Shown here one piece after another: positions 5,830-34,350 of a stretch of 64,000 nucleotides of DNA. The notes beneath the pieces are model-generated. The model was given only the letters and a program-made list of their open reading frames with translations. It ran no database searches and was not told where the DNA came from. Where the stretch lies: positions 3,224,001-3,288,000 of the forward strand of contig NZ_CP021235.1 in NCBI RefSeq assembly GCF_003585765.1, in the 5' to 3' direction. This DNA is from Pontibacter actiniarum. Its GTDB lineage: Bacteria; Bacteroidota; Bacteroidia; Cytophagales; Hymenobacteraceae. The stretch's first letter is position 1. Every line of letters starts with the position of its first letter. A program made the position numbers and the translations under genes.

Positions 5830-7680
5830 ATGCCACAGCCACAACAACCGTATGAAAGCCTGATCTCCCAGCTCGACCAACTGCACCAGGATGCCGTAGC
5901 GCTGGAGAAGAAGTTTGCCCCGGCCGTGAAGTCGGTGCACCCCAGGTTCCGCAAGAGCGCCAAGAACCTGCTGCACTACCTCGCCCTGCGCCAGCACGAC
6001 ATCCGGGAGCTCCAGGAGCAGCTGGCGCAGCTGGGCCTTTCATCGCTGGGGCGGGCGGAGGGGCACGTGCTGGCAAGCCTGCAGGCCGTGCGCCAGCAGC
6101 TCTGCCACTTGGCAGACTGCGCCGCCACACCGCAGCACCTGGCTGTCTCGTTTTTTGAGAACCGCACTTTGCTGGCCGCGCACACTAAGGCGCTGCTGGG
6201 GCCAAAGCCGCAGAACCGCAGCACCCGCATCATGGTTACGCTGCCCTCCGAGGCTGCCGACCATTACGAGCTGCTGCCGCGCCTGCTGAAGGCGGGCATG
6301 AACTGCGCCCGCATCAACTGCGCACACGATAACGAAAACGTGTGGCTGCGGATGATCCGCAACGTGAAAGAGGCAGAGAAGGAAACCGGCATCCCCTGTA
6401 AGATTCTAATGGACCTGATGGGGCCCAAGCTTCGGACAGGGCCGTTGCAGGAGGGCCCCAAGCTGCTGGTGATACACCCGGCGCACAACACCCTGGGGCA
6501 AACCACCGAGGCTGCCAAAGTATGGCTTGCCCCGCCCGCCGCTCTCCCGCCGAAGGAGGCAGATGCCTGGCTCCCCGTGGAGACGGACTGGCTGGCGCAG
6601 CTGCAGGAAGGCGACAGGCTGTACTTTACCGACACACGCAGCCGCAAGCGCTCGCTCACAGTCATCAAAAAAGAACGGAACGGCCTGCTCGCGCACCTGC
6701 TCAAAACCTCCTACATCACCACCGGCACAACCCTCAGCCTGAAAGGCGACAACTCCACCCAGCGCACGGCTACCGTCGGCGACCTGAAAGCGCTCGAGCT
6801 GCCCATCGTGCTTAAGAAGGACAGCTTTCTGGTGCTGACGCGGGAGCCCATACCAGGAGAGCCTGCCACCTATAACGCAGCCGGGCACGTAGAGCGGCCG
6901 GCGCATATCTCCTGCACCTTGCCCGAGGCCTTTACTCAGACCAAGGCAGGCCAGCCCATACTTTTTAACGACGGAAAAATTGAGGGGCAGCTACAGGAGG
7001 TGCACCCGGACAGGCTGCTGGTTAAGATTACCTACGCCAGCGCCAGCGGCAGCAAGCTCCGGGCCGACCAGGGCATTAACCTGCCGGAGAGCCAGATTCA
7101 CCTCGACGGCCTGACGGAAAAGGACCAGCAGGACCTGAAGTTCGTTGCCAAACATGCCGATATTGTTAACCTCTCCTTCGTGAACCACGCCAACACCGTG
7201 GAGGCGCTTTTTCGTGAGCTAAAGGCGCTGAAGGCGCAGGACTTGGGCGTAATGCTCAAGATTGAGACGAAAGAGGGCTTTCGGAACCTGCCGCACCTGC
7301 TCCTCACCGTTATGAAGAGCTACCCCGCCAGTATCATGATCGCCCGCGGCGACCTGGCCGTGGAGTGCGGGTGGCAGCGGCTGGCGGAGGTACAGGAGGA
7401 GATCCTTTGGCTGTGCGAGGCGGCGCACCTACCGGTGGTCTGGGCGACGCAGGTACTCGAAACGCTGGCAAAAAAAGGCAGGCCGTCCAGAGCCGAGATC
7501 ACCGACGCAGCCATGGCCCAGCGGGCTGACTGCGTTATGCTGAACAAAGGGCCACACGTGGTGCAGGCCATCGAGATGCTGCACGACATACTTGGGCGTA
7601 TGCAGGAGCACCAGAACAAGAAAACCTCCATGCTGCGCAGCCTGCACATCACAGACCTCAAGGACCTGCCACAGGGGTAA
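5830..7680 (+). CDS. pyruvate kinase-like protein with N-terminal extension
   Basis: 616 residues, longer than the usual 470-590. Residues 1-125 are an all-helical extension (ESLISQLDQLHQDAVALEKK, LRQHDIRELQEQLAQL). From residue 131 the pyruvate kinase barrel begins (TRIMVTLPSEAADHYELLPRLLKAGMNCARIN). The metal-binding KIE (KIETKEGF), MIARGDLAVECGW and ATQVLE motifs are kept. Other active-site positions differ: the RxNxSH phosphate-binding motif reads RINCAH, LDTKGPEIRTG reads MDLMGPKLRTG, and the SGETAKG loop reads NKGPHV. There is no room for the C-terminal allosteric domain, since the protein ends about 40 residues after that loop. Such proteins are commonly annotated as pyruvate kinase; whether this one converts PEP and ADP to pyruvate and ATP is uncertain. 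A real housekeeping pyruvate kinase is presumably elsewhere. Confidence 0.75.
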   Translation: MPQPQQPYESLISQLDQLHQDAVALEKKFAPAVKSVHPRFRKSAKNLLHYLALRQHDIRELQEQLAQLGLSSLGRAEGHVLASLQAVRQQLCHLADCAATPQHLAVSFFENRTLLAAHTKALLGPKPQNRSTRIMVTLPSEAADHYELLPRLLKAGMNCARINCAHDNENVWLRMIRNVKEAEKETGIPCKILMDLMGPKLRTGPLQEGPKLLVIHPAHNTLGQTTEAAKVWLAPPAALPPKEADAWLPVETDWLAQLQEGDRLYFTDTRSRKRSLTVIKKERNGLLAHLLKTSYITTGTTLSLKGDNSTQRTATVGDLKALELPIVLKKDSFLVLTREPIPGEPATYNAAGHVERPAHISCTLPEAFTQTKAGQPILFNDGKIEGQLQEVHPDRLLVKITYASASGSKLRADQGINLPESQIHLDGLTEKDQQDLKFVAKHADIVNLSFVNHANTVEALFRELKALKAQDLGVMLKIETKEGFRNLPHLLLTVMKSYPASIMIARGDLAVECGWQRLAEVQEEILWLCEAAHLPVVWATQVLETLAKKGRPSRAEITDAAMAQRADCVMLNKGPHVVQAIEMLHDILGRMQEHQNKKTSMLRSLHITDLKDLPQG

Positions 7681-9865: not shown

Positions 9866-10001
9866 TTACGGTACAGATTTTGATATGACAGAAGATGCAA
9901 GTGCAAGCACTTTATTCTGTAAATAGTTCAGTTTGCACCCTGTATTTTAACAAATTCATACTTTAGGAATAAAACCACTGTCGCCAAACAAAAGCGGCAA
10001 A

Positions 10002-11252
10002 ATGTGGTTAAACATCGATATGCGACGATACTTATCTTTTGGAGTGGTTGTACTGCTCCTGCTGCTGGTGGACCTGTACGTGTTTCAGGCCATCAAAACC
10101 GTAACCCAAAACCTGGCCCCCACTACGCAACGGGTGATCTTTGTACTTTACTGGGCTGTTTTCGTTATTACCGCAGGCACGTTCACGCTGGCCTCTGCCA
10201 CACGCGGCACCCCGCCCAGTGCGTTTCAGACGTACCTGGCGAGCACGCTGTTCATCATTTTTGCCTCTAAGCTGGTGGTGGTGCTTTTCCTGCTGCTGGA
10301 TGATGCGGTACGGGTGGGCAAGATGGTGCTGAACTCCACCAACGGCGAGGCCGCCTTTGACCCGTCCCGCAACAAGTTCCTGAACCAGATGGGCCTGCTG
10401 GTGGCAGCCGTGCCTTTCACAGCGTTTATATATGGCATGGTGAAGGGCGCCTACGATTACCGTGTAAAGCGTGTAACGCTGCGCTTCCCAAACCTTCCCG
10501 CTGCTTTTGAAGGCTATAAAATGCTCCAGATCTCAGACCTCCACACCGGAAGCTTTAACTCCACCGGCCCTTTAAAGGAGGCCGTGCAGCTTATTAACAA
10601 GCAGGAGGCAGACCTGGTGTTCTTCACCGGCGATCTGGTGAACAATGTGGCGTCGGAGCTTCGGGAGCACCTCAGTACACTGAGTGGCATCAAGGCCAAA
10701 ACAGCGGTCTACTCCGTGCTGGGTAACCACGACTACGGCGATTACGTGGCCTGGCCAAGCCAGGAGGCGAAGCGGGAGAACCTGCGCACCCTCATTAACA
10801 GCCACGGGCAGATGGGCTGGCAAATCCTGCTCAACGAAAACAGGATCATCGAAAAAGACGGGGAGCAGATTGCCGTGCTTGGTGTGGAGAACTGGGGCAA
10901 CCGGGCTGGTTTCCCCAAGTATGGCCGCCTGGAAGACGCCTACCGCGGCACTGAAAACGTGCCGTTCAAGGTGCTGCTCTCACACGACCCCTCGCACTGG
11001 GATGGGGAAGTAAACCAAAAGTACAACGACATCGACCTCATGCTTTCGGGGCATACCCACGGCATGCAGTTTGGCGTGAACATCCCCGGCCTGAAGTGGA
11101 GCCCGGTGCAGTACGTGTACAAGCAGTGGGCGGGCCTGTACAAAAGAGGGCGCCAGCACCTGTACGTGAACACAGGCCTAGGCTTCCTGGGCTATCCCGG
11201 CCGTGTGGGCTTCTTGCCGGAGATCACGGTGTTTGAGCTTAAGAGAGCCTAG
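10002..11252 (+). CDS. membrane-anchored metallophosphoesterase
   Basis: 416 residues; translation may begin at 10002 or at the internal ATG 10020 (MRRYLSFG). The first 150 residues contain four hydrophobic segments (MRRYLSFGVVVLLLLLVDLYVF, VIFVLYWAVFVITAGTFTL, LFIIFASKLVVVLFLLLD, MGLLVAAVPFTAFIYGM). The calcineurin-like phosphoesterase domain follows with all motifs: ISDLHTGSF (Asp179, His181), FFTGDLVNN, LGNHDYGDY (Asn242, His243), LLSHDPSHWD and SGHTHGMQFG. The domain is typical of the YkuE-like group. By the usual topology the catalytic domain would be attached to the inner membrane; the natural phosphoester substrate is unknown. Confidence 0.85.
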   Translation: MWLNIDMRRYLSFGVVVLLLLLVDLYVFQAIKTVTQNLAPTTQRVIFVLYWAVFVITAGTFTLASATRGTPPSAFQTYLASTLFIIFASKLVVVLFLLLDDAVRVGKMVLNSTNGEAAFDPSRNKFLNQMGLLVAAVPFTAFIYGMVKGAYDYRVKRVTLRFPNLPAAFEGYKMLQISDLHTGSFNSTGPLKEAVQLINKQEADLVFFTGDLVNNVASELREHLSTLSGIKAKTAVYSVLGNHDYGDYVAWPSQEAKRENLRTLINSHGQMGWQILLNENRIIEKDGEQIAVLGVENWGNRAGFPKYGRLEDAYRGTENVPFKVLLSHDPSHWDGEVNQKYNDIDLMLSGHTHGMQFGVNIPGLKWSPVQYVYKQWAGLYKRGRQHLYVNTGLGFLGYPGRVGFLPEITVFELKRA

Positions 11253-18787: not shown

Positions 18788-20050
18788 CTAGGCATTCTCC
18801 GTTTCGAGACTGAACAGCGCGCTCAGGCCATCCAGCAGCGCCTCTGTCTCGCCACGCTGGCAGGCTGCCTTTAGCTCCAGCGCCGGCAGCTTCACGATCT
18901 TGTTCAGCATGCCTTTGGTAACAGCCTCCACAGCGGCTCGCTCTGCTTCGCCGAGGTTCTTCAGGTAGCGGGCCATCTCCTGCTGGCGGATCTCCTCCAG
19001 CTTACTTTTAAACTGCTGCAGCGCCGGAGACATCGCCATTTCCTTGGCCCAGGCCATAAAATCGGCTACTGTTTCCGCCACAATGGCTTTTACCTGCGGC
19101 ACGGAGGCCAGGCGTATTTCCAGGGCTGCGGAGGCGCGGCTACGGATGTTATCGATGTTGCGCACCTTTACCCCTGGCAGCGTCTCCAGCTCCGGGTCAA
19201 CGCTGCGCGGCATAGAAAGGTCGATAAAGAACTTGGGGGTATGCAACGTATGGCTTTCCAGGCTCTTCTTGCTGATGTAGAAGCAATCGCCGGGCACAGA
19301 GGAGATCACCACATCCGCTTTCTCAATCTCCTCCCACACGTTTTCCCAGTACACGGCCGTAGCATTCGTGCGGAGGGCCAGCTCCAGGGCTTTGTGGTGC
19401 GTTCGGTTGGCAATGATGATGTTCTGTACCGTTGATTTCTGGAAGTTGTCGCACACATCGGCGCCGATCTCCCCTACGCCAATCATCAGCACGCGCGGGT
19501 TCTCTATCCCTCTTGTTAGTTCCTCCACCAGCTCCACCGCCGCGTACGACACGGAGGCAGCGCCATCGCGGAAGGCTGTTTCGTTCACAACGCGCTTGTT
19601 GGCCGCAAAAATGGTGTGCAGCAGCCTGTGCAGGAAAGGGCCGGCCATGTTGGCGTCGGCCGTCCACTGGTAGGCCTTCTTTACCTGGTTCAGGATCTGC
19701 ATATCGCCCACCACCTGCGAGTGCAGGCCCAGCGCCACGTAGCACAGGTGCGCTATCGCCTCCTGGTGCGCGGTTATACTTCTAAAGTAAGGCGAAACCT
19801 CCCTGGTGGCGATAAAGCCCTTCTCGATGGCGATAAGTTTGATCAGTTGCTGAGAAAGATCCTCCGCAGCAGCGTAGTACACCTCCGTGCGGTTGCAGGT
19901 GGAGAGCACCAGCACATCGCTAGCCTCGGTAAACTCCTGTATCTTGTCGAGCAGGTTTTTACAGGCTATCTCGTTTAGCGATACGGCTTCACGAACGGCA
20001 ATAGGGGCGTCTTTGTAGGATAAGGTCAGTACCTTGAATCTGTTCTGCAT
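18788..20050 (-). CDS. hemA: glutamyl-tRNA reductase
   Basis: 420 residues, full length. It reduces glutamyl-tRNA to glutamate-1-semialdehyde, the first committed step of C5-pathway heme synthesis. The N-terminal catalytic domain has the nucleophile Cys52 in VLSTCNRTEVYYA; LGLHSQVVGDMQILNQVKKAY is the substrate-binding block; the NADPH domain has VLMIGVGEIGADVCDNF; a helical dimerisation domain ends the protein. Small changes from textbook signatures (VGDMQI for GExQI) are seen in Bacteroidota. It is the only tetrapyrrole gene here and lies 139 bp downstream of the receiver-CRP regulator on the same strand, so it could be read from the signalling operon. Confidence 0.95.
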   Translation of the reverse strand: MQNRFKVLTLSYKDAPIAVREAVSLNEIACKNLLDKIQEFTEASDVLVLSTCNRTEVYYAAAEDLSQQLIKLIAIEKGFIATREVSPYFRSITAHQEAIAHLCYVALGLHSQVVGDMQILNQVKKAYQWTADANMAGPFLHRLLHTIFAANKRVVNETAFRDGAASVSYAAVELVEELTRGIENPRVLMIGVGEIGADVCDNFQKSTVQNIIIANRTHHKALELALRTNATAVYWENVWEEIEKADVVISSVPGDCFYISKKSLESHTLHTPKFFIDLSMPRSVDPELETLPGVKVRNIDNIRSRASAALEIRLASVPQVKAIVAETVADFMAWAKEMAMSPALQQFKSKLEEIRQQEMARYLKNLGEAERAAVEAVTKGMLNKIVKLPALELKAACQRGETEALLDGLSALFSLETENA

Positions 20051-20189
20051 GGTCTTTCTCTAAATACTATGCAAAATTCTAAAATTCTGACGTCCAGAAA
20101 CATGACAATCGTCAGTTCTTGGCAAGACCTTCGTCACTTCTCCCGCTGCCCTGGCGCCGGAACACGGCAAAGCCTGCAGCACCAACCCT

Positions 20190-21251
20190 TTAGTTGCGCA
20201 TGCGGCTAAGCTTGTCCAGGTTCAGGATGGTGATGCGGCTGCCCTGGCTATCGATCAGCTTCTCATCTTTGAAGTCGGCCAGCGTGCGGATCACAGTTTC
20301 TTTGGAGGCCCCCACGATACTAGCCAGATCCTCCCTCGAAATGGAGATCTGCTTAGTGGCGTGCTCCTCCCGCTCATACTGCTTGTCGACCAGCAGCAGG
20401 GCCTCGGCCACGCGCTTGCGCACGGAGTTGTAGGCCAGCTTCAGCAGGCGCTCCTCCCGGTCTGCCAGGTTGTCGGACAGGATTTTGATGAACTTGCTGG
20501 CCACATCGCGGTTACGGTCCAGCAGCGAGAAGAAATCCTCCCGCGGAATAATGTATATCTCCGCCTCTTCCATCGCCATGGCCGACTCGCGGTAGGTGGT
20601 GTCCTCCAGCAGGTCGAGGTAGCCGATAAAGTCGCCTTCTTTGTACAGGTTGGTTATGTACTCGCGCCCCTCCTCGTTCGATTTAAAGGCCTTAACCTTG
20701 CCTTTGCTCAGGAAGTACAGCGCGTTGGGCCTGTTGCCCTCCATAAACAGGAACTGCTTTTTCTTCAGCGTCGTCAGTTTGCGGTTGTCGGAGATCAGCT
20801 TCTCCAGCTCCTCGTAGCCTTTGGCCTCCTCAATAAAGCCGTTCAGCCCCTCCACGTTCTTCTGGAAATCCGTTTTCAGGATCTCGTTTTTCTTCAGGCG
20901 TATTTCAATGGCATCCAGCAGCTCCACATCGTCAAAGGGCTTGGTCAGGTAATCGTCGGCACCCAGGTTCATCCCTTTCCGGAAGTCCTCTTTCTCAGAC
21001 TTGGCTGTCAGGAAGATGAAGGGGATGCCGGCGGTGTCGGGGTTCTTGCTGAGCAGGTGCAGCACGCCGTAGCCATCCAGCTGCGGCATCATGATATCGC
21101 ACACAATCAGGTCGGGGTGCTCTTTCCGGGCCAGGTCCACGCCGGTTCTGCCGTTATCGGCCTCCACCACCTCGTAGTTGGCCAGCATCAGAATCTCCGC
21201 TGTGTTTTCCCTGATTTCGTGGTTGTCTTCTATCAACAATATCTTTTTCAT
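20190..21251 (-). CDS. response regulator with CRP/FNR-type output (REC-cNMP-HTH)
   Basis: 353 residues in three parts. Residues 1-120 are a receiver with phospho-acceptor Asp52 (VCDIMMPQLDGYG) and Lys in LTKPFDD. Residues about 150-260 are a cyclic-nucleotide-binding-type beta roll (KKKQFLFMEGNRPNALYFLSKGKVKAF, YKEGDFIGYLDLLEDTTY). Residues about 265-350 are a CRP-type winged helix (SVRKRVAEALLLV, ISREDLASIVGASKETVIRTLADFKDEKLI). No FNR-like cysteine cluster is present. Direct fusion of a receiver to a CRP domain is uncommon compared with separate FixJ and FixK proteins. Its ATG overlaps the stop of the upstream kinase by 4 nt (ATGA), so the two are translationally coupled. Confidence 0.92.
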   Translation of the reverse strand: MKKILLIEDNHEIRENTAEILMLANYEVVEADNGRTGVDLARKEHPDLIVCDIMMPQLDGYGVLHLLSKNPDTAGIPFIFLTAKSEKEDFRKGMNLGADDYLTKPFDDVELLDAIEIRLKKNEILKTDFQKNVEGLNGFIEEAKGYEELEKLISDNRKLTTLKKKQFLFMEGNRPNALYFLSKGKVKAFKSNEEGREYITNLYKEGDFIGYLDLLEDTTYRESAMAMEEAEIYIIPREDFFSLLDRNRDVASKFIKILSDNLADREERLLKLAYNSVRKRVAEALLLVDKQYEREEHATKQISISREDLASIVGASKETVIRTLADFKDEKLIDSQGSRITILNLDKLSRMRN

Positions 21252-22480
21252 GCTTCAGCTGTGTTTGGAATGGTGATGGTGAAGGTGGTGCCTTCGCCTA
21301 ACTCGCTCTGGTACTCCAGCTTGCCGTCCATCACTTCTACATATTTCTTTACAATATTCAGCCCCAGGCCTGTGCCCTGGATGTTGGTAACGTTCTGAGC
21401 CCGGAAGAACGGCGTAAACAGGTGCGCCTGATCGGCCTTTGGGATACCGATGCCCTGGTCCTGCACCGCCACCAGCGCCGCTCCGTTTGCTATACTTGTC
21501 GTAAAGCGGATGGTTTTGCCTTCCGCCGAGTACTTGCTGCCGTTCGACAGCAGGTTGAGCAGTATGTTTTTGAGTAACTGCTTGTCGATGTTGACGGTCC
21601 TTTCCTCTCCCTCGTGCTGGTAGGCTATCTGCTGCCCAGCCTTCAGGTAGCCCTGCATTTCCTCCACCACCTCTTTGGCAAAGGCCTTGAGGTTAAACGT
21701 GGTGGGCACGTTGTATATCTTGCCCTCTTCCGCTTTGCTGATGGAGAGGAAATCATTCAGTATGTTGGTCAGGTTACTCACCGAGGACTTGATCCGCTCA
21801 ACGTGCTTCTGCCTTTTCTCGTCGTCGGCCTCTGTTTTATACTTGCTGATGAGCGAGGCGGAAGAGAGAACGGTGCTCAGCGGCGTCCGGAACTCATGCG
21901 AGGCAATGGTCACGAACCTGGACTTGAGCTCGTGCAGCTCCTTCTCTTTCTGCAGTGCCTTGTGTATCTCCTGCTGCGCCTCATAAAGGCTCCTGTTCGT
22001 GTTCTCCAGCTTTCGGATGGCCTCGGCCAGCTCCTGCGTGCGTGCCTCCACGCGCTGCTCCAGCTCCTCGTTCAGCGTCTGGATCTCGGCCAGGCTCATG
22101 GCGTGCTCAATGCTGTAGCGGATGGAGCGCTCCAGGTCGAAGGGGTTGAAGGTGCCTTTCACCAGGTAGTCCAGCGCACCGGCCCGCATGGCTTTCTCGT
22201 CGGTTTCGAGGTCGCTCTGCCCGGTCAGCAGAATAAAAGGAGCCTTTGCCCCCTCCTGCACCGCCCGGGTAATCAGCTGCAGGCCGTCCTGCGCGCCCAG
22301 GTAAAAGTCCACCAGGTACACATCGTGCCTCCCCTCCCGTATCAGCGCGAGCGCCTCCTCAAACGACGACGTCCAGTCGAGCACATAGTTGCGCCTCGGG
22401 ATATCGTCCATAATGTCCCGGGTGATGATGTAGTCATCCTCGTCGTCGTCGATCAGCAGAACTTTGATTTTCTCAGCCAT
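21248..22480 (-). CDS. receiver-histidine kinase hybrid (REC-HisKA-HATPase)
   Basis: 410 residues, no membrane segments, so soluble. Residues 1-125 are a receiver (LLIDDDEDDY; phospho-acceptor Asp58 in VDFYLG; Lys in LVKGTFNP). A coiled coil (about 130-185, EIQTLNEELEQRVEARTQELAEAIRKLEN) links to the HisKA domain with His195 in ASHEFRTPLSTVL. The HATPase follows with LLNLLSNGSKYS (N box), VQDQGIGIP (G1) and GTGLGLNIVKKYV (G2). An N-terminal receiver placed before a kinase suggests it is itself phosphorylated by another kinase, probably the one at 23-24.6 kb, and passes the signal on to the receiver-CRP protein. Confidence 0.92.
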   Translation of the reverse strand: MAEKIKVLLIDDDEDDYIITRDIMDDIPRRNYVLDWTSSFEEALALIREGRHDVYLVDFYLGAQDGLQLITRAVQEGAKAPFILLTGQSDLETDEKAMRAGALDYLVKGTFNPFDLERSIRYSIEHAMSLAEIQTLNEELEQRVEARTQELAEAIRKLENTNRSLYEAQQEIHKALQKEKELHELKSRFVTIASHEFRTPLSTVLSSASLISKYKTEADDEKRQKHVERIKSSVSNLTNILNDFLSISKAEEGKIYNVPTTFNLKAFAKEVVEEMQGYLKAGQQIAYQHEGEERTVNIDKQLLKNILLNLLSNGSKYSAEGKTIRFTTSIANGAALVAVQDQGIGIPKADQAHLFTPFFRAQNVTNIQGTGLGLNIVKKYVEVMDGKLEYQSELGEGTTFTITIPNTAEA

Positions 22481-22577
22481 AGGAAAGGGAAAGGGTTAAA
22501 AACTGGGAGCTACAAAGGCAGGGAGGCGGGGGCAACGCATGGTGCTGCTAGCGCTCTGCCGCCCCCCTTTTTGCCAT

Positions 22578-23027
22578 TCAAGGCTTGGGGAGCTCCACTA
22601 TTTCGAACCAGTACTTGCTCAGCGTCCTCATAACGTCTACCAGTGAGGCGAAAGTTACCGGCTTGGTGATAAAGGAGCTGACGCCCAGGTCATAGGTGCG
22701 CAGCACATCTTCCTCTGCCTTGGAAGTGGTCAGTACCACCACCGGTATCACCCGCAGGTGCTCGTCCTCCTTAATCTCCTTCAGCGCCTCGCGGCCGTCC
22801 TTTTTAGGCATGTTCAGGTCCAGCAGGATGAGGCCCGGGGTCGGGTACTTCTCTTTATCCGTGTACTTGCCGCGGTTGTGCAGGTAGTCGATCAGTTCCT
22901 CGCCGTTCTCCACAAACTGCATCTGGTTGGTCAGGCGGCTCTCCTCCAGGGCCTCCTTTACCAGCATGCGGTCCTCGGCGTCGTCGTCGGCAATAAGTAT
23001 GATAATGGTTTTTCTGTTTGCGCTCAT
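22578..23027 (-). CDS. single-domain response regulator (Rcp1-like)
   Basis: 149 residues, receiver domain only. Acidic pocket IADDDAED, phospho-acceptor Asp70 in LILLDLNMPKKDGRE, Thr in VVLTTSKAEED and Lys in SSFITKPVTF. The extended loop NGEELIDYLHNRGKYTD is typical of Rcp1-like regulators that partner phytochrome-type and other soluble kinases. No output domain, so it is likely a phosphotransfer intermediate between the PAS kinase (11 bp upstream) and the downstream hybrid. Confidence 0.9.
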   Translation of the reverse strand: MSANRKTIIILIADDDAEDRMLVKEALEESRLTNQMQFVENGEELIDYLHNRGKYTDKEKYPTPGLILLDLNMPKKDGREALKEIKEDEHLRVIPVVVLTTSKAEEDVLRTYDLGVSSFITKPVTFASLVDVMRTLSKYWFEIVELPKP

Positions 23028-23038
23028 GGTGCTACTGC

Positions 23039-24583
23039 TTAATCCTGAAGGTGTCTTTTTGCTAAAGTTACTATAAAAGTGGTGCCTATGCCCGCCTGGC
23101 TGTGGGCTGTAATGTCGCCGCCGTGCCGCACGGCAATCTTGCGGCAGATGGCCAGGCCAATGCCCGAGCCCTCATACTTCTGCCCCTCCAGGCGCTGGAA
23201 GATGTTGAAGATGCGGTCCAGGTACTTCTCGTCGAACCCGATGCCGTTGTCCTGCACATGGATCTCCACCATCTCATCGCCCGGGGTGGAGGTCATGCGG
23301 GCCTTGCCCTGCAGTTCTCTGGCAAATATATTGATCTGCGGCTGCTCATTCTCTTTCCTGAATTTGATGGCGTTGCTCACCAGGTTCTGGAACAGCTGCC
23401 GCAGCTGGGTCGGGTCTGCCTCTATGTGCGGCAGCGGCGCGCGCTGTATCTGCGCCCCTGTCTTCTCGATGGTAATCTCCAGGTCCGAGAGCACATCCGT
23501 GAGCACGCTGTCCAGCGACACCTGCACAAAGGCTTTCGACTTGGAGGTGACGCGGGAGAAGTCCAGCAGGTCGTTGATCAGGTTCTGCATCCGCGAGGCG
23601 GCGTTCAGCATACGGTCTACGTAGTCCTTGCCCTGGTCGCTCAGCTTCTCGTACTCCTTTGTTTTCAGCCTGTCGCCGAAGGCCTGTATTTTGCGCAGCG
23701 GCTCCTGCAAATCGTGCGAAGACACGTAGGCGAAGTCCTGCAGCTCGCGGTTGCTGCGCTCCAGCTCGGCGGCATAGCGGCGCAGCCGCTCCTCGCTCAG
23801 CTTCTGCTGCGTAATGTCATGTATAAAGCCTGTGTATACTTTGCGGTCGGTGAGCTGCACCTCGCTTATACTTAAGTACAGCGGAAAGATGGTGCCGCTC
23901 TTCTTCAGCCCCGACACCTCACGCCCTATGCCGATGATGCGCCTCTCACCCGTTTCATGGTAATGGTGCATGTAGTTGTCGTGCAGGCTCTGGTCGGGCT
24001 CAGGCATGAGCATGTTTATCTTCCTGCCGATCAGCTCGTGCTCCTCGTACTCAAAGAGCCTGGCGGCCGCGGGGTTCACCATCTCCATCACGCCCCGCCT
24101 ATCGATGGTAATAATGCCGTCGACCGCGGTTTGTATGATAGAGTTGATCTTGCTCTCACTTTCGCGCAGGGCCTCCTCGGTTTTCTTCAGGTCGGAGATA
24201 TCGTGCACAATGCCCGTGAAGATGATTTTGTCCTGCAGCTTTACCTCGGCTATACTCAGGAAAAAAGGGAAGAGGGAGCCGTCCTTCTTCTTGCCCAGCA
24301 CTTCCCGGCCTTTGCCAATAATCTGCCCCTCGCCTGTCTGCATGTACCGCTTGATGTAGCCGTCGTGCAGGCCATGGTCGGGCTCGGGCATGAGCATGTG
24401 CACATTCCGGCCGATCATCTCCTCGGGCTCATAGCCAAAGATACGGGCCGCAGCAGGGTTCGCGCTTTCCATTCTGCCCTCTGTATCAATGGTAATAATG
24501 CCGTCTACGGCGGTCTCTATGATCGCTTTCAGGCGCGATTGGTCGTCAACGTTTCTGTAGCGGTTTTGCAAGGAGTCTTCCAA
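23039..24583 (-). CDS. soluble histidine kinase with two FixL-like PAS domains
   Basis: 514 residues, no transmembrane segment. Two tandem PAS domains (about 18-130 and 145-258) are near repeats. Each carries the FixL-type block: MLMPEPDHGLHDGYIKRY...IIGKGREV with His73 and Arg93, and MLMPEPDQSLHDNYMHHY...IIGIGREV with His201 and Arg221. In rhizobial FixL the equivalent His is the proximal heme ligand and the Arg senses O2. A HisKA domain (His290 in SSHDLQEPLRKIQAFG) and a HATPase of the bacteriophytochrome/FixL type follow (NLVSNAIKFR, VQDNGIGFDEKY, FQRLEGQKYEGSGIGLAICRK). Heme binding is inferred from motif only; many PAS proteins share parts of it. First gene of a four-gene operon. Confidence 0.9.
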   Translation of the reverse strand: MEDSLQNRYRNVDDQSRLKAIIETAVDGIITIDTEGRMESANPAAARIFGYEPEEMIGRNVHMLMPEPDHGLHDGYIKRYMQTGEGQIIGKGREVLGKKKDGSLFPFFLSIAEVKLQDKIIFTGIVHDISDLKKTEEALRESESKINSIIQTAVDGIITIDRRGVMEMVNPAAARLFEYEEHELIGRKINMLMPEPDQSLHDNYMHHYHETGERRIIGIGREVSGLKKSGTIFPLYLSISEVQLTDRKVYTGFIHDITQQKLSEERLRRYAAELERSNRELQDFAYVSSHDLQEPLRKIQAFGDRLKTKEYEKLSDQGKDYVDRMLNAASRMQNLINDLLDFSRVTSKSKAFVQVSLDSVLTDVLSDLEITIEKTGAQIQRAPLPHIEADPTQLRQLFQNLVSNAIKFRKENEQPQINIFARELQGKARMTSTPGDEMVEIHVQDNGIGFDEKYLDRIFNIFQRLEGQKYEGSGIGLAICRKIAVRHGGDITAHSQAGIGTTFIVTLAKRHLQD

Positions 24584-25074
24584 AGTATAGCTTTTTTATA
24601 AAGGTAACTACTCTTGCCGTAACAGGCAAAGCGCCTCCTCTCTTCTGGCGTAGCCACTACCAGCCGGCCGGCACACAGGCAGTGCAACCGACTGACAGTC
24701 GAACGAACGGCGCTGACTTTCCTGAAAGGGGCAAACATAAGCGGGGCCGCCACCAGTGTGGGAGTTCCCCTGCACAAGTATAAGGGAAAGCAGACAGGTA
24801 TAAAATGATTAATGTCAGTTTCCTCGCTTTTATCCTAAATAAGCCCAGCCATCCCTTACGCCGGGAGAGCCAGAAAGGGTGCCCTTTTCGCGGCTGGAGC
24901 CTTTCTGCCACCCCTTCCGGCTGCCTTTACCAGAATATGACTTACAGCCATACTGGTTGGTGCTATTCTATGAAACGTTCAAAATATCCCCGGGCAGGAA
25001 AACTCATACCAGCTAGTTTACGAACAAGCAGAATAAGCCAAAGCGAAGATGAGAAACACGTAAGCCCTAGCAAT
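24584..25074. other. divergent promoter region, kinase operon / proline dehydrogenase
   Basis: 491 bases between the minus-strand kinase and the plus-strand proline dehydrogenase. One possible -7 element for the kinase operon is listed separately. An open frame extends the dehydrogenase upstream to 24805, but its residues look non-coding (mixed, basic) and I do not include it. No hairpin or operator palindrome stood out. Confidence 0.5.
24732..24739 (-). promoter_or_regulatory. candidate -7 element for the kinase operon
   Basis: The minus strand reads TATGTTTG, an exact TAnnTTTG match, about 150 nt before the kinase start. No matching -33 box was found at the usual distance, so this is tentative. 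Confidence 0.3.
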
Positions 25075-28495: not shown

Positions 28496-29599
28496 CTACA
28501 CTTCTGGCTGTGCAACCATAGCATCTATCGTTTGGATTGTGCCATCTGGGTTATACTTCAGCTCCGTTACCTTCACGCTTCTCAATGGCGTCTTACCACC
28601 AGAAAGGGAGCTGTCGTGGAAGAACAGGTACCACTTACCATCTTTCTCCACGATAGAGTGGTGGTTAGTCCAGCCAAGAACAGGCTTCAGGATTACGCCC
28701 TGGTACGTAAACGGACCAACAGGGCTATCGCCGATGGCATAGGCAATGTTGTGCGTATCGCCGGTAGAGTATGAGAAGTAATACTTGCCGTTATACTTAT
28801 GCACCCACGCCGCCTCAAAGAAACGTTTTTCGTTGTCTTTCGCTAGCAGGGGCTTACCATCTTTATCTAGAATCTGGATGTCCTTCACCTCGCCGTCAAA
28901 GCTCATCAGGTCGCTGCTCAGTTTAGCCACTTTAGGGCTAAGCGCCGGCTGGTCATCAGCAGGATACTCATCTTTCTCATTATACTCGCCGCTGCTCCAA
29001 CGCTGCAGCTGGCCACCCCAGATACCACCGAAGTACATGTAGTAGTCACCGTTATCATCTTTGAAAACAGCTGGGTCTATACTATAGCTGCCTTCTATCG
29101 GGGTTGGCTGCGCTTTGAATGGTCCTGTTGGAGAAGAGCTTGTAGCCACACCAATTCTGAAAACGTCCTGCTTATCCTTAGCAGGAAAGAACAGGTAATA
29201 GGTACCATCTTTCTCAGTTGCATCCGGAGCCCACATCTGTCTGCCAGCCCAAGGCACATCCTTGATATCAAGTGCCACATCATGCAACTTTACTTTGCCA
29301 CCCACGCTGTCCATCGACATCACGCGGTAATCTCTCATCGCAAAGTGAGAGCCATCGTCTTTCTCAGGAATGCCTGCATCTATATCGTGTGATGGGTAAA
29401 CGTAGATTTTACCGTTGAACACATGCGCAGATGGGTCGGCCGTATAGATTTCAGTTACCAGCGGAGAGATAGGTGAAGTTTCCTCTGCAACTGGTTCTTC
29501 GGTTTGAACTTCGGTACTGGTGCTTTGGCAACCGGTAGCTAGCAGCGATGCAACCAGCAACGCAAAACCCGAGTGCTTGAGAGTCTTTTTTGCGATCAT
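28496..29599 (-). CDS. glycoside hydrolase family 43 lipoprotein
   Basis: 367 residues. The signal peptide ends in a lipobox (LLATGCQS, Cys24), so it is predicted to be an outer-membrane or periplasmic lipoprotein. The five-bladed propeller shows the three GH43 acids: base Asp55 in YTADPSAHVF, pKa-modulating Asp175 in SIDPAVFKDD and general acid Glu262 in FFEAAWVHKYNG. GH43 enzymes release xylose or arabinose from xylan, arabinan or their oligomers. The context, next to a second GH43 and GH115, points to glucuronoarabinoxylan, with xylosidase or arabinofuranosidase activity both possible. Its base composition is lower in GC than the downstream uxaC/uxuA genes. Confidence 0.9.
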   Translation of the reverse strand: MIAKKTLKHSGFALLVASLLATGCQSTSTEVQTEEPVAEETSPISPLVTEIYTADPSAHVFNGKIYVYPSHDIDAGIPEKDDGSHFAMRDYRVMSMDSVGGKVKLHDVALDIKDVPWAGRQMWAPDATEKDGTYYLFFPAKDKQDVFRIGVATSSSPTGPFKAQPTPIEGSYSIDPAVFKDDNGDYYMYFGGIWGGQLQRWSSGEYNEKDEYPADDQPALSPKVAKLSSDLMSFDGEVKDIQILDKDGKPLLAKDNEKRFFEAAWVHKYNGKYYFSYSTGDTHNIAYAIGDSPVGPFTYQGVILKPVLGWTNHHSIVEKDGKWYLFFHDSSLSGGKTPLRSVKVTELKYNPDGTIQTIDAMVAQPEV

Positions 29600-29633
29600 G
29601 TTAGATTTATAGTTGTTAGTAAGGTTATCAATT

Positions 29634-31361
29634 TTACTTCTGTTGCTTCATAGATGTAGCAGCATCTTTATAAATGGCATCATCTCCGGTGTAGTCAAAC
29701 CAATCGAAGGTAGCTTGGCTGGTAGATGGTTTGTCTTGCGATGTGGCATACATACCGATGGTAGTGCCTACAAAACCGCCTGCTTTCCGTGTGCTCAGGT
29801 AGGTGCCGTCTACATTATCTCTTAGCAACTTCCAGTCACCTTCTTTTGTGGCATAAAAGAAATTATACTTACCGCCATCAAAGGCTACCTTTAACAGAAG
29901 CGGCTGTTTGCTTTCTTTTTTGCTCAGCTGTGTTTCTGCCAGCACAGTGCCATCAGCCTTCTTTAGCTGCACCACCTGCTTGCCACCCGATAGTGTTTTG
30001 CCTAGGGCATAGTAGTTCTTCTCTCCCTGGAAGGCAGCTATACCTGCAAATTCATTCTCGCTGGCTGGTTTAAACTCCATTTTAGTGCTGGCGCTACCGT
30101 TTAGGTGCTGTTGCCTTCTGGCAACAAATGATGGATTACTTTTTCCTGACAGCGTTTCCGGGCGAAGATTAAGCGTCAAGCTGCCATTTGGCTGAGTCAA
30201 ACTATACCAGTCAGACTGAGGCGTGCGCAGCGTTAGCCAGTACATCGGCAGCTTACTCTCCTTAAAGTCTTCTCTATAGGTAAAGTTTCCGTTCAGCGGG
30301 AAGTCACTCTTCTGCCCCTGTGGCAGGTTCGGGCGGGTATAGGAATACTTTACCAGGTCACTTTCAGCATTGATAATCGGCCAGCCATCTTTCCAGGTAA
30401 CAGGTGCCAGGAACGTTTCACGACCGATGTTGTAGTGATCTTCTGTATCGTAAGGGCGTGTAGCCAGGAAGATTGCCCACCACTCTCCGTTCTGCGTCTG
30501 CACCAAGTCAGCGTGGCCTGTGGCAGAAACTGGGTTAGGGCGGTCGTTTGGCAGGTGGCGCTGCGTCAGGATCGGGTTTTTCTCGTAAGGCTTATACGGT
30601 CCATTTACCTTTTCGCTTCGCAAGATAACTTCAGAGTGATTCACACTTGTGCCACCTTCTGCAGCCATTAAATAGTAGTAACCGTTGTGCTTGTATATGT
30701 GCGGGCCTTCGATCCAAACTGGCTTTTTGGAAAGGTCTACACCACCATTTACCAGTATTTCTGGAGCACTTACCGTCTTCAGGTTTTTATAGTCAAACTC
30801 CTGCATACGGATGGTACGATGCCCATCATAAAGCGGCTTGTTATCTGGTGACTCGCTATTGTAAATGATATAAGCTTTGCCACCTTCATCAAAAAACAAC
30901 GATGGATCTATGCCATTTACCTCCGGCAACCATACCGGGTCTGACCAAGGACCCGCCGGATTTTTAGCCGTTACTACGAAGTTTCCGCCTTTATCAATCA
31001 AAGTGGTTACCATATAAAACGTACCATCGTGGTGCGCAATTGCCGGGGCAAAAATACCTCTCGATACGCCCAGCCCTTCCGTGTCCAGTTGCTCAGGCCT
31101 GTCCAGAATGTTACCAATCTGCTTCCAATTTACAAGGTCTTTGCTGTGGAAGATAGGCACACCAGGGTAGTAGGAAAAGGTAGAGGTGATCAGGTAATAA
31201 TCCTCGCCTACTCTACATATACTTGGGTCTGGGTAGAAGCCGGGCAGTATCGGGTTTGTAAACTTCTCCTGTGCCGTTGCCGAAGTTGCCCCTAACAAAG
31301 TACAGGCAAAGACTCCTGCTGCAAAACTGAGTCTTTTTAATGCGCTGCTGTAATTAGCCAT
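29634..31361 (-). CDS. GH43 beta-xylosidase-like enzyme, two domains
   Basis: 575 residues with a cleavable signal peptide (TLLGATSATAQEKF). The GH43 propeller has Asp45 (FYPDPSICRVGEDYYL), Asp152 (NGIDPSLFFDEGG) and Glu218 (WIEGPHIYKHNG). The C-terminal 200 residues are a beta-sandwich (YWLTLRTPQSDWYSL ... FVGTTIGMYATSQ) as in beta-xylosidases of the GH43 subgroup with a DUF1349-like or XynB C-terminal domain. Start block TNPILPGFYPDPSI and SYYPGVPIFHSKDLVNWKQIG are typical of non-reducing-end beta-xylosidases. It lies 34 bp from the other GH43 gene and 31 bp from GH115, one operon. Confidence 0.92.
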   Translation of the reverse strand: MANYSSALKRLSFAAGVFACTLLGATSATAQEKFTNPILPGFYPDPSICRVGEDYYLITSTFSYYPGVPIFHSKDLVNWKQIGNILDRPEQLDTEGLGVSRGIFAPAIAHHDGTFYMVTTLIDKGGNFVVTAKNPAGPWSDPVWLPEVNGIDPSLFFDEGGKAYIIYNSESPDNKPLYDGHRTIRMQEFDYKNLKTVSAPEILVNGGVDLSKKPVWIEGPHIYKHNGYYYLMAAEGGTSVNHSEVILRSEKVNGPYKPYEKNPILTQRHLPNDRPNPVSATGHADLVQTQNGEWWAIFLATRPYDTEDHYNIGRETFLAPVTWKDGWPIINAESDLVKYSYTRPNLPQGQKSDFPLNGNFTYREDFKESKLPMYWLTLRTPQSDWYSLTQPNGSLTLNLRPETLSGKSNPSFVARRQQHLNGSASTKMEFKPASENEFAGIAAFQGEKNYYALGKTLSGGKQVVQLKKADGTVLAETQLSKKESKQPLLLKVAFDGGKYNFFYATKEGDWKLLRDNVDGTYLSTRKAGGFVGTTIGMYATSQDKPSTSQATFDWFDYTGDDAIYKDAATSMKQQK

Positions 31362-31392
31362 AGTTTTATACTTTCTGATACGGAATAACGAC

Positions 31393-34350
31393 TTACTTTA
31401 CTGCTGATGTTGCTGTTTCCGGGCGGCCACTCTCTGGTGGGCCAAGGTAGCTAGGTTTAGCACCGTCTGTTTCCACTACTATTTTCTGCAGCACCACTCC
31501 CGGGTCTACCATCCATACTTTCAATACATGCTGTCCTGGCTTCTCCACCTTGTGCTTCGACTGCGTCACGATAATGTTGTTACCTACCCACTCGTCCCAA
31601 GACTGTGTGGTGTTGTCCTTGTGAATGTTCACGATTTGCGGCGCTGCATCATCGATAGCCACAGCATAACGCAAGCCATCCGATTCGTTATAGTTAAGTG
31701 TTGGTGATACCAGTAGCTTCACGTTTACTTCACCGCTGTTGAGCAGGTACATGTCATACTCCAGTCGTGGACTATCTGATCCTGGCTTTTTGGATTTTGC
31801 AGTTACCGGAAAAGGAGCCACTGCTGATGCTGTGCGGCCCAGGTCAGGAATAACTTTCCATTGTGCATCGCCAGCCTCTATAGTGCGAGAGAAATTCTCA
31901 GCATTCATGGCTACATAGCCGTTGCTCTCTACAAAGCCTTTTACATTGTCAGCGGTAAGGTTAGCCGGGTTGTTGACTACTGCCTGTACTACCACACGCT
32001 TGCCATTAGGACCGGTAATAGTAACTGGCACACGCTGCTTACCCTTCGGTGCCTGCTTCCAGTTCACGCTCACAAACAGGCGCTGCTGGTCGTTTACTGC
32101 GCCTTGTTTCTGGTCTACCTGCAGCCACTCTGCTCCTGTTTGTACGGTATAGGTAAATGGCTTCTGCCCACGGTTAAAGATCTCGATGTAGTAAGACTGT
32201 TGTCCAAAAGGAGTTAATTCAGGTAACACTGCCTCGCCTTTAGCATTTGGCCACCAGTTTTCTGATCCTTCTATGGCCACGCCCATCTCAGAGCCAGCAG
32301 GAAGTGTAATTTCTTTCACCTCTGGCAATACATCCTTATCTGGTTGCTGCCAATAAGTATAGCTAATGTGCGTTTGGTCCATCATGTGGCTCCATTTACC
32401 GTTCGCAATGTCTTCGTTGTAGATTCTGGAAAGCTCCTGGTCTACATCAAAAAGTTCTTTAGCCTTTGTAGCATAACTGTTTGCAGCAGCACGGCCTTGC
32501 TTAGCGTAAAGTCTGTTTTTCGCTACTGCCAAGTATAAAGCGTTTAAATTAGCGCTTGCTTTTACCGGGTGCAGCACCAGTTGAAAGTATGCATCTTTAT
32601 AATCTTGCGGCATCTTCTTGTAAAGCTGCTCTGCCTTCTCGGCCAGTTGCAGGTATTCAGCTACCACGCTTTCTGCTTCGCGATAGTTTGTAAGGCTATA
32701 GGTTTCTGGTGATAAAAGCTCAGGTTTACGACGCGAATTATACTTGCCATACTTAGCTAGCAGCTCCGCAATCTCTGTTGCATACTGCTGCGGGAACTGC
32801 TGTGCTGCCCACTGCTTTGTGTATTCATCCAGGCGCTCTGCCGGCCACTTTTCAGGGTTCCAGGCATAGTCCAGGAAGAAGGATGTCGGAAACTCCATTG
32901 GCTTAATATCGCCCACATTCACAATCCAGATTTTGTTAGCGTTATGCTCGTACGCCAGGTGCATCTGCTCCCAGATACGTGGCAGCGGGTTCGTGTTGAT
33001 CCACTTATAGTTTCTAGGGCCACCTACATAATCGAAGTGGTAGTACACCCCGAAACCGCCTGCATGTTGCTTTGCTCCTGCCTTAGGCAGTTTACGGAGG
33101 TTACCCCAGTTATCGTCTGCTAAAAGTAGCGTTACATCATCTGGCACACGCATGCCTTTGTCGTAGTAATCCTGCACCTCTTTGTAAAGTGCCCATATCT
33201 GTGGCGTTTCAGAAGCAGGTTTGCCAGTTACATCAGCTATAATTTTGCGTTGGTCATCTACAATCTGCTCCAGCAGAGCGATGTTGCTGTCTTCGCTCAT
33301 TGGCTCATCACCGTCGCCACGCATGCCTATTGTTACGATGCTCTCGTTCTTGCCCATGCGTGCTATACCATCTCTCCAAAACTTCTGCAGGTTTTCTTTA
33401 TTGGTCTGATAGTTCCACTTGCCAGTTCCAAAGCGTCTCCACTCGTCGTGGGCACGGGAAAGTGGTTCGTGGTGGGAAGTACCGATCACTACGCCATACT
33501 CGTTGGCTAACTCCGGGTTTTTAGGATCATCATCATAAAAAGCTCTTCCCCACATAGCTGGCCATAGGTAGTTACCTTTCAGGCGAAGTACAAGCTCAAA
33601 CACATTGGCATAAAACTTAGAGTTAAAGCCACCGAATTTTTCTGTAGCCCAACCTGCCAAAGCGGGGGCCTCATCGTTAATAAAGATGCCTCTGTACTTT
33701 ACTTTTGGCTCCCCATCAGTATGACGTCCCGGCGTTACGTATAAGTTTTGCTGTTGCTTTACCGGCACATCCGCCCAATAATACCATGGCGATACACCGA
33801 TTTGTGCAGACACATCATAGATACCGAAGATCGTACCACGCTTATCGCTACCGGCAATTACCAGCGCTTGGTCTACCCCGCGCATTGGCTTGTCTACTAC
33901 CTGTACCAGGTAGGTTTCCCACTTGCCGGCTATACCCGATACATCGAGCTTTTTACTCTTTACCAGCTTATCAATTACTGGACTTTTGCCAAGTGTACCA
34001 ATTAATACTACTTGCTTTGCCTTTGGAGCTTTTTTGTCTATCGTTAAGTTTGGCTGCACCTTGGTTACACGGTTTACGTCTGCCTGTAAGTCTTTAGCCG
34101 CTCTGACTACTCCGGCAAAATCTTCGCTGCTCACATACAGAGGAGCCGCCTTGCCAGATGCTGCCAGCGCAAAGGAACCTTTGCTATTGGTTGAGGAGAT
34201 GTAGGTATCGCCATTGGCAGCAGCCTGTGTTAACTGCGGCATCAGCACAAAGCCAAACACCAGCAGTAAGGCATACACATGCTTCGCCCACGGCAGGCGC
34301 CTTGCCCTTTTCTGCGTTTTACAAGTAGTAGCTAAAAGAGAGTACTTCAT
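31393..34350 (-). CDS. GH115 alpha-glucuronidase
   Basis: 985 residues, full length. A signal segment (ALLLVFGFVLMPQLTQAAANG) follows a basic N-terminus. Domain order fits GH115: an N-terminal domain (residues about 55-190, with VVLIGTLGKSPVID and ALVIAGSDKRGTIFGIYDVSAQIGVSPWYYWADVP), the TIM barrel (KYRGIFINDEAPALAGW, LKGNYLWPAMWGRAFYDD, GVVIGTSHHEPLSRAHDEW, TIGMRGDGDEPM, NKIWIVNVGDIKPMEFPTSFFLDYAW), a helical region and a C-terminal beta domain (residues about 830-985). GH115 removes (4-O-methyl)glucuronic acid from internal as well as terminal xylose units of glucuronoxylan. First gene of the low-GC three-gene block. Confidence 0.95.
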   Translation of the reverse strand: MKYSLLATTCKTQKRARRLPWAKHVYALLLVFGFVLMPQLTQAAANGDTYISSTNSKGSFALAASGKAAPLYVSSEDFAGVVRAAKDLQADVNRVTKVQPNLTIDKKAPKAKQVVLIGTLGKSPVIDKLVKSKKLDVSGIAGKWETYLVQVVDKPMRGVDQALVIAGSDKRGTIFGIYDVSAQIGVSPWYYWADVPVKQQQNLYVTPGRHTDGEPKVKYRGIFINDEAPALAGWATEKFGGFNSKFYANVFELVLRLKGNYLWPAMWGRAFYDDDPKNPELANEYGVVIGTSHHEPLSRAHDEWRRFGTGKWNYQTNKENLQKFWRDGIARMGKNESIVTIGMRGDGDEPMSEDSNIALLEQIVDDQRKIIADVTGKPASETPQIWALYKEVQDYYDKGMRVPDDVTLLLADDNWGNLRKLPKAGAKQHAGGFGVYYHFDYVGGPRNYKWINTNPLPRIWEQMHLAYEHNANKIWIVNVGDIKPMEFPTSFFLDYAWNPEKWPAERLDEYTKQWAAQQFPQQYATEIAELLAKYGKYNSRRKPELLSPETYSLTNYREAESVVAEYLQLAEKAEQLYKKMPQDYKDAYFQLVLHPVKASANLNALYLAVAKNRLYAKQGRAAANSYATKAKELFDVDQELSRIYNEDIANGKWSHMMDQTHISYTYWQQPDKDVLPEVKEITLPAGSEMGVAIEGSENWWPNAKGEAVLPELTPFGQQSYYIEIFNRGQKPFTYTVQTGAEWLQVDQKQGAVNDQQRLFVSVNWKQAPKGKQRVPVTITGPNGKRVVVQAVVNNPANLTADNVKGFVESNGYVAMNAENFSRTIEAGDAQWKVIPDLGRTASAVAPFPVTAKSKKPGSDSPRLEYDMYLLNSGEVNVKLLVSPTLNYNESDGLRYAVAIDDAAPQIVNIHKDNTTQSWDEWVGNNIIVTQSKHKVEKPGQHVLKVWMVDPGVVLQKIVVETDGAKPSYLGPPESGRPETATSAVK

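Follow-up and report, generated by a model that had tools for sequence, protein, structure and literature searches.

A predicted low-oxygen relay ending in a receiver-CRP protein in Pontibacter actiniarum and its relatives

We analyzed a four-gene operon of Pontibacter actiniarum that encodes a histidine kinase with two FixL-type PAS domains, a bare receiver, a receiver-histidine kinase, and a receiver fused to a CRP/FNR-type DNA-binding protein (receiver-CRP). The operon lies in a stretch of 64,000 nucleotides, positions 3,224,001 to 3,288,000 of NZ_CP021235.1, which we refer to as the window and whose own numbering is used for coordinates below. Our analysis indicates that these genes probably form a low-oxygen switch, in which a relay controls receiver-CRP and receiver-CRP in turn would act through tandem palindromes on genes for the cbb3 oxidase, on nirK, and on an extra copy of hemA. 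An earlier sequence-only reading had proposed an oxygen- or heme-type relay ending in a receiver-bearing CRP protein, and both the conserved gene order and the shared upstream sites support that proposal. The regulon that we predict reaches beyond it, to the cbb3 genes and nirK.

The operon and its conservation in relatives

Gene calls and Pfam matches agreed with the four-gene composition and order first read from the sequence, and all four genes lie on the minus strand. The first gene (positions 23039-24583) encodes a kinase of 514 residues, with a TTG start as called, in which PAS1 spans about residues 15-130, PAS2 about 143-260, HisKA 281-347, and HATPase_c 390-509. It is followed by the genes for the bare receiver (22578-23027; Response_reg), for the receiver-kinase (21248-22480; Response_reg at residues 7-109, HisKA at 186-253 with the motif HEFRTPL, and HATPase_c at 299-406), and for receiver-CRP, the proposed terminal regulator (20190-21251; Response_reg, cNMP_binding PF00027, and HTH_Crp PF13545). 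The next gene on the same strand, as had been stated, is hemA for glutamyl-tRNA reductase (18788-20050, minus strand; over the cut-off of NCBIfam TIGR01035), which we propose as a target.

The Pfam scan of the four operon proteins found no HPt domain, as expected from the earlier suggestion of a relay without one. The receiver-kinase conserves its motifs, including those for ATP binding, in alignments with relatives, and its HisKA domain is a possible phosphotransfer equivalent. The two kinase cores of the window are just 24% identical to each other. In the bare receiver, the phospho-acceptor Asp, the Thr, and the Lys are unchanged across 21 of 21 aligned rows. The operon receivers are bare, kinase-fused, or CRP-fused by Pfam, and we found no REC-LuxR (FixJ-type) protein in the operon, the genome outside it not having been searched for FixJ.

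Conservation of the four-gene order in relatives had been set in advance as a check. All 20 close loci that were fetched have this order, as do 62 of the 80 named loci, which are the best 80 of 327 confirmed relatives. In 18 named loci the full order was not found, and several of these are on short contigs (L242, L248, L256, and L264). The operon occurs in Pontibacter, Rufibacter, Adhaeribacter, Cesiribacter, Nafulsella, Rhodocytophaga, Xanthocytophaga, Imperialibacter, and Flammeovirga. Across the 20 close loci, the genes for the double-PAS kinase and the bare receiver are separated by -7 to 14 bp, and those for the receiver-kinase and receiver-CRP by -4 to 5 bp (an overlap or a gap of at most 5 bp in all 20), with 14 to 1907 bp between the bare receiver and receiver-kinase genes. 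This pattern points to two tightly coupled gene pairs, kinase with bare receiver and receiver-kinase with receiver-CRP. Downstream hemA on the same strand was found in 17 of the 20 close loci, at 95-660 bp in 16 and at 2534 bp in one. Of the 62 named loci with all four genes in order, 47 contain hemA. Two of the three close loci without adjacent hemA, in G012 and G028, have a hemA orthologue 9 to 12 kb downstream of the operon, and a close hemA orthologue was not found in the third genome, G049. As a separate observation, locus L268 bears the Bacteroidota four-gene operon in a record named as an uncultured Thalassobius (Pseudomonadota), and this record is possibly misnamed or a mixed metagenome assembly.

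Tandem palindromes at hemA, cbb3 oxidase, and nirK genes

We defined a site as the CRP-type palindrome TGAY-N4-RTCA, scored out of its 8 fixed positions. Upstream of the window's hemA is a proximal 8/8 palindrome, TGAC-N4-GTCA, at 20101-20116 (minus strand; -66 from the start codon), with a distal 7/8 palindrome at 20123-20138 (minus strand), 22 bp upstream of the proximal one. A shared CRP-type site had been a second preset check, and by consensus scan an 8/8 palindrome lies at -63 to -68 of hemA in 18 of 18 close loci. All 48 named hemA loci likewise have one, between -63 and -71; in shuffled hemA promoters, an 8/8 site fell there in 0.07%. As a raw count, 43 of the 48 also have a second copy, of 6/8 or better, 22-23 bp farther upstream. 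Exact inverted-repeat counting by itself was weak and was set aside, with one repeat common to at most 4 of 20 kinase loci, 5 of 21 receiver-kinase loci (another repeat), and 2 of 18 hemA loci; the clear result came from the consensus scan. Of the three glutamyl-tRNA reductase genes in the P. actiniarum genome, the window's copy alone bears an 8/8 site within 300 bp upstream. The others, at G000:C1:4146313-4147560 and 1966152-1967381, are 52% and 32% identical to it. The second hemA (51-53% identical) of four operon-bearing genomes carried the site at this promoter position (-63 to -71) in 0 of 4 cases (L112, L128, L129, and L138).

A search of the P. actiniarum genome for tandem sites with at most two mismatches gave 14 places versus 7 for the reversed pattern. 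Four places are perfect and precede ccoG, ccoNO, a ccoI-like gene, and nirK. Tandems with one mismatch occur at hemA and on the second contig, where the site (L136, G000:C2:5001-20000, site 7206-7239) lies 177 bp upstream of a gene that has no NCBIfam match and beside genes that, from their sequence, we take to be metal-efflux-like. The products of ccoG, ccoNO, nirK, and hemA exceed NCBIfam equivalog or subfamily cut-offs; that of the ccoI-like gene matches a general P-type ATPase model only, and the gene is named from its context. The nirK gene with its perfect tandem site belongs to a denitrification cluster (L135, G000:C1:1582001-1600000) that also includes a Sec-dependent nosZ and a gene for a 767-aa protein without an NCBIfam match, presumably NorB-like from its sequence; the nirK product has a C-terminal cytochrome c-like part. 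A tandem with two mismatches at the nos operon was rejected as a candidate, since it was not separable from noise (8 two-mismatch places versus 7 for the control).

We extended the search to ccoNO promoters of 24 genomes, which comprised P. actiniarum and the 23 ccoNO-bearing members of 32 picked genomes. At least one 8/8 site was present in all 24 promoters and a perfect tandem in 21 of them. Perfect tandems numbered 77 in the 23 picked genomes with ccoNO versus 4 in the 9 without it, and the control pattern gave 1 perfect tandem in all 32. In the consensus sequences of both the ccoNO and the hemA promoters, a TTTG follows the proximal site at equal offset. The promoter consensus of Bacteroidota has boxes at -33 and -7, and taking the TTTG offset together with the -7 box, we estimate that the proximal palindrome would lie near -41 from the transcription start, the position of a class II activator. 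CRP-type palindromes before cbb3, assembly, and heme synthesis genes make this a FixK-type regulon as predicted from sequence.

The upstream region of the operon itself also shares the CRP-type site. Within 350 bp before the first kinase gene, an 8/8 site was present in 33 of 55 relatives (named loci numbered up to L250) versus 2.2% in shuffles, and 31 relatives had a partner 22-23 bp upstream of the operon site. In control regions of the same length, 8/8 sites were present in 0 of 55 before the bare receiver gene and 1 of 57 before the receiver-kinase gene. In the window, a single palindrome between the kinase operon and a proline dehydrogenase gene (24804-24819, minus strand) is a possible autoregulatory site, for which no tandem partner was seen within the window. 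The whole window contains three 8/8 palindromes (at 20101, 24804, and 58369) against a naive expectation of 3.9, so a lone palindrome in the window proves nothing, and the case is built on conservation, tandem spacing, and genome-wide counts.

The sequence-only reading had also brought a manganese catalase gene, an aa3 oxidase subunit gene, and the proline dehydrogenase gene into the proposed control. The catalase and the CoxI-type gene are indeed nearby, but no 8/8 palindrome precedes either within the window, and we rejected both as targets on the basis of sites. Thus, a search for CRP sites at the proposed genes was fruitful for hemA and not for these two, and the one palindrome before the proline dehydrogenase gene lies in a region that also serves the kinase operon and is not assignable to either. 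Elsewhere in the window, three long genes at 28496-34350 (minus strand) are apparently unrelated to the relay; we take them from their sequence to encode proteins resembling secreted glycoside hydrolases, with the pair at 28496-31361 presumably GH43-like.

Predicted sensor domains, kinase partner, and terminal regulator

Both PAS domains of the first kinase had been said to keep the FixL contexts of the proximal His and the O2-sensing Arg, and we found exactly these residues, His73 and Arg93 in PAS1 and His201 and Arg221 in PAS2. Gap-free alignments over 126 residues give identities to the heme domain of BjFixL of 42.9% for PAS1 and 43.7% for PAS2, and the two domains are 58.7% identical to each other. 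FixL entries of the PDB are among the matches of the kinase. Taken from a model of low overall confidence, the fold of a single PAS domain matched the BjFixL heme domain with a template modeling score normalized by target of 0.91-0.93 and a root-mean-square deviation of 1.2-1.5, so that the alignment and structure comparison proposed for the PAS pockets came out in favor of the FixL likeness. The structure match was used for a single PAS domain versus BjFixL alone, and domain placement in the AlphaFold2 (AF2) model was not used. With the proximal His and the O2-contacting Arg in place, both domains are of FixL type by sequence, and by analogy with FixL they would bind heme with O2 as the ligand, and the kinase would be active without O2. 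P. actiniarum has 37 PAS matches in its genome, the closest to PAS2 after PAS1 being 26% identical.

The His and Arg are kept in both PAS domains of 55 of the 62 kinases from four-gene named loci. Throughout 56 aligned double-PAS proteins (the window's and 55 relatives), the His, the Arg, and the IIG-x-GR context are present in both domains without exception. Other architectures occur, with a single PAS domain bearing His and Arg in L251, L258, L260, and L265, one good and one degenerate PAS match in L252, and one PAS domain each with His kept and Arg not in L268 and L273. In the same genus as the window, L031 (G049:C1:1016291-1033349, kinase open reading frame 9935-11191, minus strand) encodes a kinase with a single PAS domain that keeps His and Arg and is apparently a fusion of PAS1 (first half) with PAS2 (second half). 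Such single-PAS kinases (L031 and the four with His and Arg above) would fit an alternative in which one PAS domain alone binds heme and the other is a structural or dimerization domain, like PAS-A of BjFixL, which is not known to bind heme. Retention of His, Arg, and IIG-x-GR by both domains in all 56 double-PAS proteins argues against this alternative, which we regard as possible yet somewhat doubtful. We also built a PAS tree from the window, 16 picked double-PAS loci, and 27 other PAS domains, with few columns and many open forks. The PAS2 domains formed one clade (95), as did the PAS1 domains (99) save one very long row, and PAS1 was nearer some single-PAS kinases than PAS2 (87-90), a topology that does not date the PAS duplication.

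A second alternative is that the kinase reads heme supply and not oxygen, with PAS occupancy reporting heme and hemA serving as a feedback target. Consistent with this possibility, the additional hemA is the most consistent neighbor and target of the operon, and a pair of FixL-type PAS domains may have unequal affinities for heme. On the other hand, an O2 sensor should keep the pocket Arg, and 55 of 62 kinases have it in both PAS domains; in addition, ccoNO, ccoG, the ccoI-like gene, and nirK are low-oxygen genes comparable to those of FixLJ-FixK regulons (PMC7888657; PMC6710368). We therefore consider heme supply an unlikely primary signal and favor oxygen sensing. FixL and DosP fall into the same PAS cluster, 60% of whose members (more than 9700 sequences) retain the His and are suggested, as a prediction, to bind heme (PMC10468136).

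The second kinase was placed by comparison with Bacteroidota loci in which a receiver-CRP gene adjoins one kinase gene. In 296 genomes drawn across the phylum, receiver-CRP was found at an E value of 1e-50 or better in at least 43, a lower bound given that at most 7 candidates per genome were scored. An adjoining kinase was found in 32 of the 40 loci L051-L090, and the cores of these kinases are 45-53% identical to that of the window's receiver-kinase, except in L064, whose adjoining kinase is itself a receiver-kinase with a core 40% identical to the window's. A PAS match stands in front of the core in 31 of the 32. We called a PAS domain FixL-type when it scored over 140 with a profile built from the window family, and such domains are present in 11 adjoining kinases, nine in L051-L090 plus those of L262 and L270. 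The core match to these two-gene kinases suggests that the receiver-kinase pairs with receiver-CRP, with a receiver in the place of the sensor. Assignment of the second kinase as the partner of receiver-CRP thus has good support, and we infer that the change ran from PAS to receiver. Longer receiver-kinases, with an extra stretch between receiver and kinase core, occur in L251, L260, and L268. A cco gene lay within the fetched stretch at 11 of the 40 loci L051-L090, at 13 of the 80 named loci, and at 4 of the 18 lacking the full four-gene order. Our literature search, chiefly by title, found no published description of Bacteroidota kinase/receiver-CRP pairs.

Receiver-CRP combines a cNMP_binding domain with a Crp-type helix-turn-helix domain and is by its sequence a member of the CRP/FNR family, outside both the cAMP-CRP and the FNR groups. 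E. coli CRP contacts cAMP through E72, R82, S83, T127, and S128; receiver-CRP keeps R82 and has Y, E, R, and E at the other four positions, and this loss of most contacts fits phosphorylation, not cAMP, as its input. As for FNR, the N-terminal place is taken by the receiver, and zero Cys residues lie between the receiver and the cNMP domain. The recognition helix of receiver-CRP, SKETVIR, has one substitution at one position across 21 rows and is close to SRETVGR of E. coli CRP. Receiver-CRP has good support as the predicted binder of the tandem sites.

We also compared the occurrence of receiver-CRP and ccoNO in 60 family genomes. A receiver-CRP match at 1e-40 was present in 55, full length in 53, of which 34 have a close protein at 74% identity or more and 19 a distant one only, at 43-51%. 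ccoNO was found in 33 of the 34 genomes with a close receiver-CRP (the exception, G039, is 78% complete) and in 13 of the 19 with a distant full-length one only. Genera g3, g5, and g6 each include both states. Comparison of any with none (46 of 53 versus 0 of 7 genomes with ccoNO) gave a Fisher p of 9e-6, which overstates independence because the family genomes are related, and where "none detected" means no full-length match at an E value of 1e-40 with at most 34 candidates scored per genome. These two limits weigh against a low-oxygen switch governed by receiver-CRP, as do several observations. Six of the 19 genomes with a distant receiver-CRP only are without ccoNO, and one perfect tandem site occurs in each of 3 of the 7 in which receiver-CRP was not detected. 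A single hemA site lies at -161 to -176 in seven of the more distant relatives, among them G047, in which no receiver-CRP was detected and whose single 8/8 site is at -170 of hemA. The window's own kinase promoter holds one palindrome only, and that a distant one. In some relatives, a bare CRP 43-48% identical to the CRP part (43-47% in G018:C3, G058:C1, G046:C13, and G055:C1) is encoded 3-5 kb from ccoNO and could act on these sites as well; at the same cut-off, bare CRP was not found in the window's genome. For the sensor, the AF2 model of the double PAS is weak (predicted local distance difference test score of 67.5), about 40% of the FixL/DosP PAS cluster is without the His (PMC10468136), and His retention is no proof of heme.

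The bare CRP near ccoNO and the tandem site in 3 of the 7 genomes also favor an alternative in which the array is heme- or redox-responsive, a different CRP/FNR protein occupies the tandem sites, and the hemA site is a coincidence of neighborhood. Two P. actiniarum proteins exceed the HTH_Crp_2 cut-off, receiver-CRP and one other, although CRP-like proteins missed by this model are possible. We rejected the other protein as the binder, as its recognition helix differs and it had zero matches at an E value of 1e-30 in the 13 genomes that combine a distant-only receiver-CRP with ccoNO. Neither G037 nor G045, which have tandem sites in their ccoNO promoters, has such a match; of the 7 genomes in which receiver-CRP was not detected, 2 have one. 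In 33 of 55 relatives the site also precedes the operon, which argues further against this alternative, and we consider binding by another protein quite improbable.

In the mechanism that we propose, O2 would leave the PAS-held heme of the first kinase at low oxygen, and this kinase, like FixL, would autophosphorylate without oxygen. Phosphate or a regulatory signal would then reach the receiver of the second kinase, directly or via the bare receiver as carrier or sink. The second kinase would phosphorylate the neighboring receiver-CRP, as gene coupling and the two-gene relatives suggest, and phosphorylated receiver-CRP would bind tandem TGAY-N4-RTCA palindromes 22-23 bp apart and activate ccoNO, ccoG, the ccoI-like gene, nirK, and the extra hemA, as well as its own operon in many relatives. 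Low-oxygen respiration is the output that these targets suggest with good support. The bare receiver may instead be a phosphate sink or an inhibitor of the first kinase with no relay step, a role that falls just short of an even chance in our judgment. Its gene lies no more than 14 bp from the first kinase gene in 20 of 20 close loci, and the other gap varies from 14 to 1907 bp. Conservation of this gene placement in 62 of the best 80 named loci and invariance of the phospho-acceptors in 21 rows fit either role.

Relation to known systems and significance

In Rhizobium leguminosarum, hFixL reportedly acts through FxkR to induce FixK, and FixK drives fixNOQP (PMC7888657). The P. actiniarum operon is like this hFixL-FxkR-FixK pathway and like FixL-FixJ-FixK in its predicted placement of a FixL-type heme-PAS kinase at the top and a CRP/FNR protein at the bottom, and it is like the rhizobial FixK regulon in having CRP-type palindromes at cbb3, fixGHIS-type assembly, and denitrification genes. 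In contrast to FixL-FixJ-FixK, the operon has no FixJ/LuxR-type regulator and the receiver is fused straight to CRP, so activity would be set by phosphate and not by making more FixK. It further differs in an intermediate second kinase with receiver input, in two FixL-type PAS domains per kinase, and in its Bacteroidota promoter type. The idea of a condensed FixL-FixJ-FixK system therefore holds as an analogy but not as descent, since the operon is without FixJ and the receiver-kinase core matches Bacteroidota two-gene kinases. Our best reading of the sequence data is of a functional counterpart of FixL-FixJ-FixK with a different architecture and not of a member of that system, because the operon encodes no FixJ-type regulator and its response regulator is the CRP protein.

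Like the Bacteroidota two-gene pairs (L051-L090 and L251-L273), the operon joins receiver-CRP to an adjoining kinase core. In those pairs, PAS usually stands on the kinase of receiver-CRP, whereas here a receiver takes that place and PAS is on a separate kinase. RcaE-RcaF-RcaC and Spo0F-Spo0B-Spo0A are known phosphorelays that, like this operon, place a bare receiver between the sensor kinase and the final regulator. Unlike in those phosphorelays, no HPt or Spo0B-type phosphotransferase was seen in the operon, and the His intermediate would be the second kinase.

These comparisons allow a broader proposal, which we put forward tentatively and at somewhat less than even confidence. Bacteroidota may have an oxygen master switch of their own in receiver-CRP, with neither FixJ nor a separate FixK. 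The sensor would originally have been a kinase-fused heme PAS, swapped in Pontibacter kin for a receiver fed by a double-heme kinase. This relay would read O2 through two hemes, or O2 together with heme supply, and drive cbb3, nitrite reductase, and a dedicated extra hemA.

A literature search, chiefly by title, found nothing on a receiver-CRP regulator of cbb3 in Bacteroidota and no account of low-O2 induction of the cbb3 oxidase together with denitrification genes in this phylum. What emerges here is a candidate regulator with a likely binding site, a promoter architecture, and a set of targets, all open to direct testing in culturable Pontibacter. A sensor swap is also possible, in which a receiver that takes its input from a separate double-PAS kinase replaced PAS on the regulator's own kinase. 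The operon further provides a bacterial case for asking why one kinase uses two FixL-type PAS domains, with the single-PAS version in L031 and the two-gene relatives as ready comparisons.

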